Of a DNA stretch of 58,690 nucleotides, positions 21,702-49,164 are shown piece after piece (within the stretch, counting starts at the first letter, position 1; every line of letters begins with the position of its first letter). This DNA comes from Deltaproteobacteria bacterium (GTDB lineage: Bacteria > Lernaellota > Lernaellaia > JACKCT01). The position numbers and the translations under genes are program-made. The stretch spans positions 1-58,690 of the forward strand of contig JADLEX010000066.1 in assembly GCA_020845895.1 (NCBI GenBank), read 5' to 3'. Below the pieces are notes generated by a model. That model saw only the letters and a list, made by a program, of their open reading frames with translations, had not been told where the DNA came from and did no database searches.

Positions 21702-23066
21702 ATGAACGGACGTGGGAATCGAGTGGCGGTCGCAACGATCGCGTTGGGGCTCGGGTTCGCGGGTTTGGCGGACGCCGCGATTCTCAAGGGCCCTTATCTC
21801 CAGGACGTCACCACGAACGCGGCGACGATCTGCATCGAGGCCGATTCCGATGGCGTGGCCTCCGTTGAGTACGGACCCGACGAGAGCCTGGGCCAGTCGC
21901 TGGGCGCAAACGCGTGGCGCGAAAAGACGTTTCCCGACGGGGTGCGCTACATGTACCGCATCCGAATCACGGGGCTCGAACGCGGCACGAGCTACGTCTA
22001 CCGCGCGATTCACGGCGGCGACGCGAGCGACGACATCGTGTTCACAACGATGCCCGACAACATGACACCCTTTCGCTTCGTGTCCATCGGCGACACGCGC
22101 AACGGTTCTCCCGAAAGTCCGAACCTGATCCACGTGGACATCGCGGAAGCGGTCGCCGCGCAGACGCCGCTCTTCTACCTGAATACGGGCGACTTTGTGG
22201 CCGACGGCGGCCATTATGAAGACTGGGACTACCACTTTCTCGTGGAAAACGACCTGATGGGAATCTCGCCGATCGTACCGGTTTTCGGCAACCACGAGGA
22301 CGGATATGACGACGTCACGGGATTCACCGGCGACGAACTGTGGAAGTGGTACTACGACACGGGGACGGGCGAGGACGCGCGGACGTGGTTCAGTTTCGAC
22401 GTGGGGAACGTGCACGTTGCCGTTGTGGACCTGCAGAAGTGGTGGACGCTGTTGCCGGGGATGACGCAGATCGAATGGTTGCGCGACGATCTGGAGCAGG
22501 ATCAGCTCGACACGCGCACAAACTTCACGATCGTCTCGTATCACCAGCCCGCGTTCACTTACAAGGAAGGGCGCACCCCCGATATCGCGGCGCGCTTCAT
22601 GGTGGAGCCCGTCGTACGCGCCTTTGGCGTGGATCTGGTTTTGTCGGGCCATGATCACTTTTACGCGCGCCACGAACTCAATGGCATTCCGCACGTCATT
22701 ACGGCCGGCGGTGGCGCGGCGCTCTACGACGTGTATCCCGGGATTCAAAGCTGGCCGGGATTTCGCGCGCACGCCCGCGATCACCACTACATGATCGCGG
22801 AGGTCGCATCCGAACGCATCGATTTCGAGGTTTACAGCATCACGAACGGCGATCTGCTCGACGCGTTCTCGATCGAGGCTGACGCGCCGCCGACCGAGGA
22901 CGACGACACGGACGACGATGACGACGACGTCGCCGACGACGACACGGATGATGACGCGACCGACGACGATGCGACGGATGACGACACAGGAACACCCGAC
23001 CACGACACGCCATCGGCGGACGGGGATTCGTCGGGCGAAGATGACAACGACGGTTGCGGCTGCTAG
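21702..23066 (+). CDS. Secreted calcineurin-like phosphoesterase (purple acid phosphatase type) with Asp-rich tail
   Basis: 454 residues. Signal peptide ending near GLADA, a fibronectin-III-like N-terminal domain as in purple acid phosphatases (KGPYLQDVTTNAATICIE, about 28-115), then the metallophosphoesterase motifs in order: SIGDTRN, NTGDFVADGG, GNHED, SYHQPAF and SGHDHFYARH, which bind two metals. From about residue 398 the chain becomes almost pure Asp/Thr/Ala (DDDVADDDTDDDATDDD), and it ends DDNDGCGC. The tail is lineage-style low complexity and the Cys-ending terminus may be an anchoring or sorting signal (inference). Natural substrate unknown. GGAG before the ATG; converges on the flagellar operon with a 6-bp gap. 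Confidence 0.85.
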   Translation: MNGRGNRVAVATIALGLGFAGLADAAILKGPYLQDVTTNAATICIEADSDGVASVEYGPDESLGQSLGANAWREKTFPDGVRYMYRIRITGLERGTSYVYRAIHGGDASDDIVFTTMPDNMTPFRFVSIGDTRNGSPESPNLIHVDIAEAVAAQTPLFYLNTGDFVADGGHYEDWDYHFLVENDLMGISPIVPVFGNHEDGYDDVTGFTGDELWKWYYDTGTGEDARTWFSFDVGNVHVAVVDLQKWWTLLPGMTQIEWLRDDLEQDQLDTRTNFTIVSYHQPAFTYKEGRTPDIAARFMVEPVVRAFGVDLVLSGHDHFYARHELNGIPHVITAGGGAALYDVYPGIQSWPGFRAHARDHHYMIAEVASERIDFEVYSITNGDLLDAFSIEADAPPTEDDDTDDDDDDVADDDTDDDATDDDATDDDTGTPDHDTPSADGDSSGEDDNDGCGC

Positions 23067-38228: not shown

Positions 38229-40763
38229 ATGTCGCGCGTGTGGAGATTGGCGGTGAAGCGAAGCGCGTTCCTCGCACTCCTCGCGTGCGCGTTGCTCGTC
38301 GCGTGCGGAAGCGGCGACAACGATGACGGCGACGCTAACGCGGACGATGACGTCGCCGACGACGACACCGACGACGATTCCGATGACGACGCCGATGACG
38401 ACACGTTTCCGCCGCTCGATGACGACGACGCGAGCGACATCGAATATTGGCCGGTCGATCCCGCGCCCCAGACCGACATGGCCGCGTGGTTCGACGCGCG
38501 TACCGCCCTGCTCGAACGCAGTCTGTACTTCTCGTATTTCAATGCGCTCGAAGGCTATCCCGGCCGCGGCGCGCTCGGCGATTTCGGGATCGGCAACGGG
38601 CGTATCTTCGCTCTCCAGGGCATGAACCGCGACATCAACGCCCTTACGGAATACACCGGACCGTACTATCAAAACGACGGAGGCCGATTCGGCGACACCC
38701 CCGCGCGCCTGTTTGTCGGTAACGAAGCCGCAACGCCCGGCCACCAATGGATCTGGCGCGTACGCGGAGCGGCGATCAACGTGACGAAGACGATGAGCGC
38801 AGACGAGACGCTGGAACTGTACACGGTCGATTTCGCGCCGCCCGACCTCGACGCCGTCGCGCGCATGCTCATCGTGCGCAACGCGCACGAGACGCTCACG
38901 TTCGAGCAAGTCGCCGTCCGGCAAGCCCCGGTCCGCGATGGCGATGACGCGATCGAGACGTCCGAGGGATGCGTGATCCAGCGTCGTGGCGAAAAAGCGC
39001 TGCACATGTGCGGCGCGCAGGACGATGCCGACATCGCGCCTGAGGTTGGCGACCTCGTGGTGTCGTGGCCGTCCCTCGCGCCGGGCGAAGAAGCTACCGC
39101 GCTCATCGCCTTCGTTTTCGTTACCGAGGACAACGAGGCCGCCGCGTCGATGATTCGCGAAGAGATCCGTGATCGCGGGATCGACGCATTGCTCGACGAC
39201 ACCCTCGCTTGGTGGCGCGATTACCTCGACGTCGCCGCGAAGATCGACGTGCCCGACCCCAAGGTCGCCGATCTTTACGAGGGCATGCAGGTGACGATCG
39301 GCGCGCTCACGGACCAGTCCGGCGCGGTCACGCCGATGAGCCGCTATTCGAGCGCGTGGCTGCGCGACACCGACGGCCCGACGCGTTTCTACGATCGCAT
39401 CGGCCGCTTTGACGACTCGGCGCGGATGATGGACTACGTTTATCGCGTTGGCGTGCTCCATCACGAGATCGCCAACTCGATGCCGCTCGATCTCGACGTT
39501 TCGGGTGTGGCGGACCCCGCAGACGGTCGCACGTTTTGGGAGTCGTGCAGTTTCATGCCGGGCCGCTACAAGGCCGAGGCGCCGAGCTTCGTACCGGTCA
39601 TGTACCACCGTCACTGGCTCGCCACGGGCAGCACCGAGCTGATCGACGCGCGATACGAATACCTGCGCGCGGCGCTGACGCTTCAGGAGCGCACGCCGGA
39701 CGATCTCATGGGCTTCAGCGGCGACGAGACATTTCGCTATCCGCTCATGGTCGCGATGCTGGAGATCCAGGAAGTCCAGGAGAACTACTATTCGCTCTAC
39801 TCGAATCTGCTGATGGTCGTCGCATCGGAGATGATGAGCCGCATCGCGGACGCGACCGACCGCGATGAAGACGTCGATCCGTTCGCCGAAACCGCCGATG
39901 ACGTGCGTGCCGCGACCGAGGCGAATTACCGGTTCGGCGACCGATACGCGCCGGTGCTCGCCATCGACGACCTCGAACCCTGGAATTTTCCGTTCGAAGA
40001 CGTTTCGACGCAGCCCGTGTGGCTCGAATATCTCGATCCCACGTCGGACGACGCGGCGGAGACGGTGCAGGATTACGTCGATTTCCTCCAGCGCGACGAC
40101 GGCACGCTGCTCTTCCCCGAGGCGCTGTTCGGCTTCGCGTCAACACCGTTTTACACAGGGATGGTGCCGGGATTTCACCTGTACAACGTCGCGCGCGTCG
40201 ATCACCCGAATGGCGATCTCGTCTTCAACGCCATCGACCGGACCGCGAGCGACTCGGGCAACTACTCCGAGATGCAGACGCGAAATCACAACATGTTCAC
40301 CGTCACGCACGCGAAATCGGGGCGCGGACTCGAGGAGATCACGTCGCGCTATCGCCCGTGGGAGGGCGGCATCAATCTCGACGCCGTGCTCGAATTCCTG
40401 TTCGGCACGCACGTCGATGTCCCCGCCAAGACAATGCGCTTCTTCCCGCATTTGCCGAATCGCTGGACGTCGTCCGGCATGCGCGACCTGCCGGCGGGCA
40501 CGGATGGCGCCTACGATCTTCGCGTCGAACGCAGCGGTGACACGTGGTCGCTCACGATCGAAAGCCGATCGCCGCACGACTTCGTCGCTGAGGTCACGTT
40601 CGCCGACGACGGCGCACACGCGGTGACGGCGACCGTCAACGACGCCGCGCACGCGAACGTGGACACGATTGAACGATGGGGACGCACCCGCGCGATCCTG
40701 CGCAACGTTGCCGTTTCCGCAAACTCGACGACACGTGTGGTCGCGACGTTTTCTCCCAACTGA
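38229..40763 (+). CDS. Asp-rich-linker lipoprotein with six-hairpin glycosidase-like domain
   Basis: 844 residues. Lipoprotein signal (FLALLACALLVACGSG), then an Asp-dominated tether (DDDVADDDTDDDSDDDADDD, about 37-60), which would hold the enzyme away from the membrane. The rest resembles (alpha/alpha)6-barrel glycosidases: SAWLRDTDGPTRFYDRIGRFDD, FSGDETFRYPLMVAM, and a C-terminal beta-sandwich following the barrel (MRFFPHLPNRWTSSGMRDLPAG). The exact CAZy family cannot be named from sequence alone. It precedes a GH4 glycosidase (13-bp gap) and a sugar kinase, so a role in extracellular glycan breakdown is inferred. GAGG lies before the ATG. Confidence 0.75.
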   Translation: MSRVWRLAVKRSAFLALLACALLVACGSGDNDDGDANADDDVADDDTDDDSDDDADDDTFPPLDDDDASDIEYWPVDPAPQTDMAAWFDARTALLERSLYFSYFNALEGYPGRGALGDFGIGNGRIFALQGMNRDINALTEYTGPYYQNDGGRFGDTPARLFVGNEAATPGHQWIWRVRGAAINVTKTMSADETLELYTVDFAPPDLDAVARMLIVRNAHETLTFEQVAVRQAPVRDGDDAIETSEGCVIQRRGEKALHMCGAQDDADIAPEVGDLVVSWPSLAPGEEATALIAFVFVTEDNEAAASMIREEIRDRGIDALLDDTLAWWRDYLDVAAKIDVPDPKVADLYEGMQVTIGALTDQSGAVTPMSRYSSAWLRDTDGPTRFYDRIGRFDDSARMMDYVYRVGVLHHEIANSMPLDLDVSGVADPADGRTFWESCSFMPGRYKAEAPSFVPVMYHRHWLATGSTELIDARYEYLRAALTLQERTPDDLMGFSGDETFRYPLMVAMLEIQEVQENYYSLYSNLLMVVASEMMSRIADATDRDEDVDPFAETADDVRAATEANYRFGDRYAPVLAIDDLEPWNFPFEDVSTQPVWLEYLDPTSDDAAETVQDYVDFLQRDDGTLLFPEALFGFASTPFYTGMVPGFHLYNVARVDHPNGDLVFNAIDRTASDSGNYSEMQTRNHNMFTVTHAKSGRGLEEITSRYRPWEGGINLDAVLEFLFGTHVDVPAKTMRFFPHLPNRWTSSGMRDLPAGTDGAYDLRVERSGDTWSLTIESRSPHDFVAEVTFADDGAHAVTATVNDAAHANVDTIERWGRTRAILRNVAVSANSTTRVVATFSPN

Positions 40764-48006: not shown

Positions 48007-49164
48007 TCAGCAGGAACAACATCCGCCCGTGATTTCGCCCTCGGGCCATCCCGCCGCGGGCGTGGGGGGTTCCTCGGTCACGCAGCGCGCGTTGTCCTCG
48101 TCGCACACCTCGTCGTTGTCGCAGGGATTTCCCGCGGAGATGCACGCGGACTCGTCGTTGGAACAGATCTCGGGACCGTTGCAGAATTCGCCGTCGTTGG
48201 GACAGACCGGCGGGTCGCCCGTCAGGCACGAATCCGACTCCTCGTCGCAATAATCCGCGCCGTTGCAGTACACGCCGTCGTCGGGGCACATCGGGACGTC
48301 GGAGTGTCCGCAGTCGTCGATTTCTTCGTCGCAGAGTTCCGCGCCGTTGCAGTACTGCCCGTCGTCGGGACACTCGGGCGGTTCCTGCTCGTCGCAGGCG
48401 TCGGCGTCTTCGTCGCAGAACGCGCCGCCGTTGCAGTACACGCCGTCGCCGCCGCAGTCGGGCGCGTTCCGGTGGCCGCAGTCGGCGATGCTCTCGTCGC
48501 AGAATTCCTCGCCGTTGCACCACAACTCGTCGTCGGCGCACTCGACCGGCTCACCCGGTTCGCACTTGAGGTCGACGCACTTCTCTTCGCCGTTGCAGAA
48601 TACGTCGTCCTGGCAATCGGCGTCTTCATCGCACAGCGGCTCGAAATCGGTTTCCAGGTTGTCGATGATCCAATGGTTGCCGAGGCTTTCGATGCGGATG
48701 TACGAGATGCTGCCCTCGACGGTGAGAACGTCGAGCGCGCCGGTGTTGGAGTTGATGCCGCCCGAATCGGTATCGACGAGGACGTTGAACTGGTTGTAGG
48801 CGTTGATGGTCATTCCGTATGAGGAGGAATAACCCACGGTCACGGACGAGACGCCGTCCGGGAATGTGATCAGACCCTCGTCGCGATCCGCGCCCATCCA
48901 CGCAAAGAAGTCTCCCTCGGACCAGAGCGCCCCGTCGGGATGGGGTCCGTTGTACTTGGGTTCCCCGGGCACCGGACCGTTCGCGGTCCAATCGCCGTAA
49001 ACCCAATTGAATCCGCCTGCCGGCGAAAACACGATCGAGGGGTCCGGCGAAACGACGTTCGCGCCGTCGTTGCCGCCTTCGAAATCGACGAGGATCGCCC
49101 CCGCCGTCGCTGCCGTCATCACACCGCAAATCAGGGCGATCACGCCCAACCGATATCGATTCAT
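48007..49164 (-). CDS. Secreted Cys-rich repeat protein with CCSC C-terminus
   Basis: 385 residues. Signal peptide (RLGVIALICGVMTAATAGA). The N-terminal domain, about residues 25-175, looks like a beta-sandwich (FEGGNDGANVV...WIIDNLETDF). Then come six Cys-rich repeats of 26-28 residues with consensus C-x-D-(D/E)-x3-CNG-x-E/D-x-C, centred on CNG at residues 190, 216, 244, 272, 300 and 328, and a partial seventh. The chain ends GEITGGCCSC. Most cysteines are paired in number, suggesting disulfide-bonded surface or adhesion modules. Function unknown. It follows the YfaP-like gene by 30 bp, probably in one transcript. Confidence 0.78.
   Translation of the reverse strand: MNRYRLGVIALICGVMTAATAGAILVDFEGGNDGANVVSPDPSIVFSPAGGFNWVYGDWTANGPVPGEPKYNGPHPDGALWSEGDFFAWMGADRDEGLITFPDGVSSVTVGYSSSYGMTINAYNQFNVLVDTDSGGINSNTGALDVLTVEGSISYIRIESLGNHWIIDNLETDFEPLCDEDADCQDDVFCNGEEKCVDLKCEPGEPVECADDELWCNGEEFCDESIADCGHRNAPDCGGDGVYCNGGAFCDEDADACDEQEPPECPDDGQYCNGAELCDEEIDDCGHSDVPMCPDDGVYCNGADYCDEESDSCLTGDPPVCPNDGEFCNGPEICSNDESACISAGNPCDNDEVCDEDNARCVTEEPPTPAAGWPEGEITGGCCSC
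48082..48633 (-). repeat. tandem protein-coding repeats (six, about 84 bp each)
   Basis: The DNA encoding the Cys-rich modules repeats at about 84-bp steps, with near-identical cores such as TGCAACGGCG preceded by GACGACGGCGTGTAC on the minus strand. Divergence between units is mostly synonymous or at linker residues, so the repeats are expanded by duplication and then selected. Not CRISPR: no spacers and an open reading frame throughout. Confidence 0.7.

Follow-up and report, generated by a model that had tools for sequence, protein, structure and literature searches.

A helix-less Gly/Cys C-terminal tag, very probably an anchor, on exported proteins of a Candidatus Lernaellota class

Exported proteins of the bacterium analysed here were found to end in an acidic linker and a short Gly/Cys cluster that no hydrophobic helix follows, and this ending is very probably a real, class-wide C-terminal anchoring tag. 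The combination of an Asp linker and a terminal G-C-G/S-C is probably a helix-less ('pre-cleaved') form of the MYXO-CTERM surface tag, whose Cys would be lipid-modified after export, possibly by an extra Lgt. As read from the sequences, the tag was widespread on many unrelated exported proteins and was equal to the signature part of MYXO-CTERM in the sister genomes; in the genome studied it came without a helix or a myxosortase match, at the end opposite to the lipobox of lipoproteins.

Materials and methods

The window is the whole stretch of DNA that was analysed (58,690 nucleotides, G+C of 63–65%). Its genome (G000; 4,975,318 bases, 171 contigs, 99.5% complete) was compared with six sisters (G001 to G006), giving seven class genomes. 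In PMC11382960, FEN-1099 (Ca. Lernaellota or Podoxiota), to which the class very probably belongs, is given 7 genomes with G+C of 61.5–64.3%. Signal peptides and lipoboxes were called by our own rules, not by SignalP.

Results

Two tailed proteins in the window

A preliminary description of this DNA had reported that a phosphoesterase and an unrelated Cys-repeat protein, both exported, finish with DDNDGCGC and TGGCCSC. Both ends were confirmed from the ORFs (Table 1), and a signal peptide was present in each protein; a lipobox was looked for in both and was absent. In the phosphoesterase, the signal peptide was followed by a PF00149 domain (E = 1.6e-11) and then by the Asp-rich linker, with ...SGEDDNDGCGC as the terminus; a Pur_ac_phosph_N match in the profile search was below the cut-off. 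In the Cys-repeat protein, the signal peptide was accompanied by a Cys repeat region and the terminus was ...EGEITGGCCSC; BLAST placed this protein in family 5 with the proteins of L207, L208 and G004 L177, all of which end with GCGC or CCGC.

Table 1. Coordinates of the tailed proteins, their C-terminal elements and a lipoprotein of the window
Feature	Positions	Strand	Remarks
Exported calcineurin-like phosphoesterase with helix-less Gly/Cys C-terminus	21702..23066	+	454 aa; ORF and PF00149
Asp-rich linker (DDDxDDDx) preceding the phosphoesterase tail	22896..23051	+	Sequence; the linker precedes tails genome-wide
Terminal Gly-Cys-Gly-Cys of the phosphoesterase	23052..23063	+	Stop codon TAG next, at 23064-23066
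Exported Cys-repeat protein with helix-less tail	48007..49164	-	385 aa; ORF and BLAST grouping
Terminal Gly-Gly-Cys-Cys-Ser-Cys of the Cys-repeat protein	48010..48027	-	Sequence
N-terminal lipoprotein, for comparison	38229..40763	+	Asp-rich linker beside the lipobox Cys; without Gly/Cys tail

Homologues of the window phosphoesterase were present in all seven class genomes, and no relatives were found in the search of named genomes. The homologue in G002 (L237, G002:C12) appeared as two ORFs, reflecting a frameshift or an assembly error. In G001 (L240, L234; G001:C55) there were three tandem phosphoesterase copies, two of them with complete tails (GCGC and GCGCGC).

Frequency of the tail

The raw pattern C-G-C-stop matched 60 + 47 (107) places on the DNA of G000, compared with 67 + 72 (139) for the reversed-pattern control. 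No excess was seen, because most DNA matches were out of frame or TGG. From the first 100 C-G-C-stop matches listed, those with a true stop were considered; when 82 distinct ends were read in frame, an acidic linker was present in 61, of which one (L066) was judged false. In the G000 DNA examined, C-x-C ends were found in 67 ORFs with a length of 80 aa or more, and 64 of these were tailed proteins of the acidic-linker type, namely 63 acidic ones and L049, which has a Thr-rich linker and was added by eye; C-G-C had been used in part to choose the set. The ends of the 63 were GCGC (38), CCGC (14), ACGC (5), SCGC (3), VCGC (1), GCSC (1) and CCSC (1). When 59 tailed proteins were aligned, C452 and C454 (phosphoesterase numbering) were the sole invariant columns, C-x-C being part of the selection.

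The distribution over gene classes was obtained from 20 stretches of 20 kb of G000 plus the window, a sample whose contigs were chosen with a C-G-C-stop match or from such listings and which was not blind as to contig: at least two Cys in the last five residues were found in 8/77 signal-peptide, 1/40 lipoprotein and 1/205 other genes. With the window left out, the counts were 6/68 signal-peptide genes versus 1/173 others (Fisher p = 0.002; ∼0.09 such ends expected from internal five-residue segments), so that Cys ends were indeed commoner in exported proteins, and the earlier suggestion of a minimal C-terminal sorting or anchoring signal is supported by this enrichment. In a sample of G004, picked by contig number, the corresponding counts were 4/64 signal-peptide, 0/27 lipoprotein and 2/148 other genes.

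Selection by the linker led to the same kind of end. Cys was present in the last six residues of 12/14 Asp-rich C-termini of the G000 sample, the two without it being an ORF lacking a signal peptide and a lipoprotein, and the same was true of all 10 Asp-rich C-termini listed for the G004 sample. The G004 ends varied (GCGC, GCGCN, GGCG, GCGG, GGCS, CCGG, GCGSA and ACGC); therefore, the core of the tail is one Cys flanked by small residues, no more than a few residues from the end.

Among 61 tailed proteins with complete 5' ends, a plain signal peptide was called in 52 and a lipobox in 4, and 5 had neither. A Pfam search of 59 tailed proteins returned 51 families, including subtilases (5), calcineurin-like phosphoesterases (4), trypsin-like (4), FG-GAP (4) and PKD (4), as well as Kelch, Peptidase_C25 (2), carboxypeptidase M14 and beta-N-acetylglucosaminidase. 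Judging by sequence, the presence of the tail is not explained by protein fold.

Distribution in and beyond the class

The pattern D-G-C-G-C-stop matched 19, 8, 7, 1, 4, 1 and 0 places in G000 to G006, respectively, and its reversed control 0, 0, 0, 1, 0, 1 and 0. Although G006 gave no match, it encoded a phosphoesterase terminating in GGCGC. Over 84,980 named species, DDDGCGC-stop was found in 20 stretches. Five of them (six matches) belonged to the MAG JAOSJX01, where convincing tails were in frame; two tailed proteins were common to this MAG and the sister G002. The other 15 stretches, being short, out of context or with TGG ends, were rejected by eye, and so was a Kofleriaceae match (L115) among them, which had no long linker. 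The phylum of G034 (possibly Myxococcota) gave matches in 12 of 97 genomes, at 15 places, none of which read as a linker-plus-tail end. The helix-less form therefore seems to be class-specific within the genomes searched. A search of open-licence papers for helix-less Gly/Cys tails or for Ca. Lernaellota surface proteins found none.

Relation to MYXO-CTERM and myxosortase

For the MYXO-CTERM/myxosortase system (TIGR03901, NF040914), the legend of Figure 7 of Guo, Haft and Wall (2025) gives the signature as a generic GCGC motif (PMC11980579). The order proposed in that paper is lipidation of the Cys by an Lgt-like enzyme, removal of the helix by a myxosortase cut beyond the Cys, and then type II secretion, the Cys lipid being a prediction only; known GlyGly-CTERM and PEP-CTERM members are described there as tripartite, with a helix and a basic tail (PMC11980579).

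No TIGR03901 (MYXO-CTERM) match above the cut-off was found in G000; G001 to G006 had 1, 4, 1, 1, 3 and 1. Several of the sister matches showed the linker, GCGC, a helix and an Arg end, for example DDDDDGCGCSVTSGKASGFALPVGMLAIGILAFGLGLRRSR. The resemblance to MYXO-CTERM that had been remarked on was thus close, in that the sisters carried the identical linker and GCGC (...DDDDDGCGC) ahead of the helix and the Arg tail. A MYXO-CTERM match near an Lgt of G005, which lay inside a protein of 1,209 aa, was disregarded. Mrt_core, the myxosortase core model, had no match in G000 (99.5% complete) and was above the cut-off in 5/6 sisters (in G001, 69 bits against a cut-off of 100); PF02517 (Rce1-like proteases) had none in G000 and 2–5 in each sister. 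The co-occurring processing enzyme envisaged by the preliminary description therefore did not materialize in the window's genome, both protease models being unmatched there and present in the sisters. Because the tail occurred in bulk in G000 without tripartite substrates or a myxosortase match, its dominant form appears to be 'pre-cleaved' and helix-less, with no need of myxosortase.

The helix-less tail and MYXO-CTERM share the signal peptide, the acidic linker (in the tripartite members of the class) and the Gly/Cys signature, and both occur on presumed surface proteins of many folds. Unlike MYXO-CTERM, however, the tail has no transmembrane helix, no Arg tail and nothing to cleave, and unlike MYXO-CTERM systems, G000 has no myxosortase match. 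GlyGly-, PEP-, JDVT- and Synerg-CTERM likewise serve as C-terminal sorting tags on proteins exported by Gram-negative bacteria, but their known members differ from the tail by a helix and a basic tail; known JDVT-CTERM and Synerg-CTERM members are tripartite in this way. For 59 tailed proteins, 56 NCBIfam families were obtained, and the first 25 of them did not include GlyGly-CTERM, PEP-CTERM or similar tags.

Tail versus lipobox

A lipobox was found in 4/56 exported tailed proteins, compared with 41/121 exported non-tailed ones (Fisher p = 8e-5). In many N-terminal lipoproteins of the class the Asp linker came directly after the lipobox Cys, whereas in tailed proteins it came directly before the tail. 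The 30 rows of the phosphoesterase tree, from which fragments and duplicates were excluded, comprised 19 with the tail only, 9 with the lipobox only (one, L277, assigned by eye), none with both and 2 with a C-terminal hydrophobic segment. Two anchor changes were needed on this tree, so that the contrast between tail and lipobox there rests on few independent events; the swap was also observed in BLAST families 3 and 15. By looser rules applied to all class loci, both marks were present in 11/102 tailed genes. Two neighbours, L165:13551-15962 and L165:16255-18687, had a credible lipobox together with a Gly/Cys tail (GGCCGC and GSGCSV) and are possibly double-anchored.

N-terminal lipoproteins (Lgt/LspA) thus resemble the tailed proteins in having Cys at the anchor end and an adjoining Asp-rich spacer, with homologous enzymes on either anchor; the tail differs by being at the opposite terminus and by having no lipobox or signal-peptide helix beside its Cys. 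In four lipoproteins of G000 (L166:2456-4753, L172:809-2668, L169:3493-5571 and L160:2606-3865) the mature N-terminus was C-x-C-G-D(5-7), which almost mirrors the D(n)-G-C-G-C ends. Such a C-x-C start was found in 4/38 lipoproteins of G000 and 0/31 of G004, and hence it is no class-wide rule.

Candidate machinery

Three Lgt loci were present in each of the seven class genomes (C33, C57 and C141 in G000). Among 53 other genomes, 52 had at most two Lgt matches, and three were found in G034, which has MYXO-CTERM matches. In a quick tree the class loci formed roughly three groups; lspA adjoined one of them and nothing telling lay beside the other two, the neighbours, including lspA, being named from our reading of sequence starts. 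G010 and G054 had MYXO-CTERM matches with one Lgt match each, which indicated that extra copies are unneeded for tripartite tags. The extra conserved Lgt paralogues are suggestive only as candidates for modifying the tail. A GspD match was obtained in 7/7 class genomes, six over the cut-off, and the search of the same genomes for the SprA translocon (TIGR04189) gave no match. Two tailed proteins matched Peptidase_C25/PorU-type models in this class without an SprA match.

Discussion

A lipid on a tail Cys is the best reading of the anchor and has somewhat better than even chances. The tailed protein would leave the cytoplasm by Sec export, and one tail Cys would then be lipid-modified in the periplasm, a step for which either of the two extra Lgt paralogues is a possible candidate. 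The lipidated tail would directly be the end product that myxosortase otherwise makes by removing the helix after lipidation; in genetic terms, a protein ending with GCGC corresponds to the myxosortase-cut product. Among the points against a lipid, the helix-less tail has no obvious route to a membrane-embedded acyltransferase, and lipobox and tail occurred together in some proteins (4/61 with complete 5' ends, and the 11/102 by looser rules). A more specific proposal, somewhat short of an even chance, is a C-terminal lipidation signal of four to six residues (acidic spacer and G-C-G/S-C), carried by dozens of exported proteins, that would need no helix or protease and would be served by a dedicated acyl- or diacylglyceryl-transferase, for example an extra Lgt.

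Whether the tails are helix-less tags at all can be questioned on two grounds, and both readings are very improbable. Cys residues that are merely structural, or ends that arose by chance, in either case without a common function, would agree with the raw DNA counts, which did not exceed the reversed control, and with the second tailed protein of the window, which is Cys-rich anyway. Yet the enrichment appeared in frame, with the linker and in exported proteins, and the tail was conserved in homologues across the class; the in-frame counts refuted this reading. A hidden tripartite tag would make these proteins ordinary MYXO-CTERM proteins whose stop is read through or whose helix lies in another frame. 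In favour of this, TGA was the stop in 53/64 tailed genes, but sampled genes in general also ended most often with TGA (212/322). A hydrophobic 16-mer within 40 codons past the stop was found in 3, 3 and 5 (by frame) of the 62 tailed genes, out of 64, with enough DNA past the stop, and the top in-frame ones resembled, by look, the start of the next gene. The earlier remark that no hydrophobic helix follows the tail therefore held, helix-like stretches being rare in every frame, and this rarity together with the absent myxosortase match in G000 largely refuted a hidden tag.

Two other explanations accept the tail as a signal but dispense with the lipid. The terminal Cys might be linked through a disulfide or thioether bond to a surface polymer or to another protein, or bind a metal, so that the protein is held in a matrix. 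In line with such a thiol anchor, the tails of the 64 proteins, selected for C-x-C, contained two Cys in 47 cases and three in 17, and 5/64 lacked any Cys from residue 28 up to the tail, whose own Cys would thus be available to an external partner. However, some sister homologues had single-Cys tails (GGCGG, GCGN), which also argue against a two-Cys redox motif, and a thiol anchor, which we regard as unlikely, predicts neither that tail and lipobox nearly exclude each other nor that the tail is identical with the MYXO-CTERM signature found ahead of a membrane helix. Alternatively, the tail might be a secretion or sorting signal only, recognized by the type II system or some other exporter; it would afterwards be cut off or stay unmodified, and the proteins would be soluble outside the cell. 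The GspD matches in all class genomes and the two tailed proteins of Peptidase_C25/PorU-type families would fit this, but SprA was unmatched, and the lipobox phosphoesterase homologues lacked the tail, which therefore behaves as an anchor and not as an export code. Known type II substrates, to our knowledge, need no such tail, and a purely secretory role is quite improbable.

The prenylated C-termini of eukaryotic Rab GTPases (-CC or -CXC) resemble the tail in that a Cys pair comes last and no helix is involved, but these proteins are cytosolic and use a prenyl transferase and an escort protein, so that the comparison is an analogy only. If the lipidation signal proposed above is true, it would do outside the cytoplasm what Rab-type CXC lipidation does within it, and would mirror the N-terminus of classical lipoproteins. 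A tag consisting of the Cys signature only separates the role of the Cys from that of the helix, the tags described in PMC11980579 having a membrane helix that a dedicated protease removes. Since the helix and, in G000, apparently also the protease are already absent, the MYXO-CTERM Cys modification becomes directly testable in this system. For a phylum of which we know of no cultured model, the tail offers an easy criterion by which its surface proteome can be identified.
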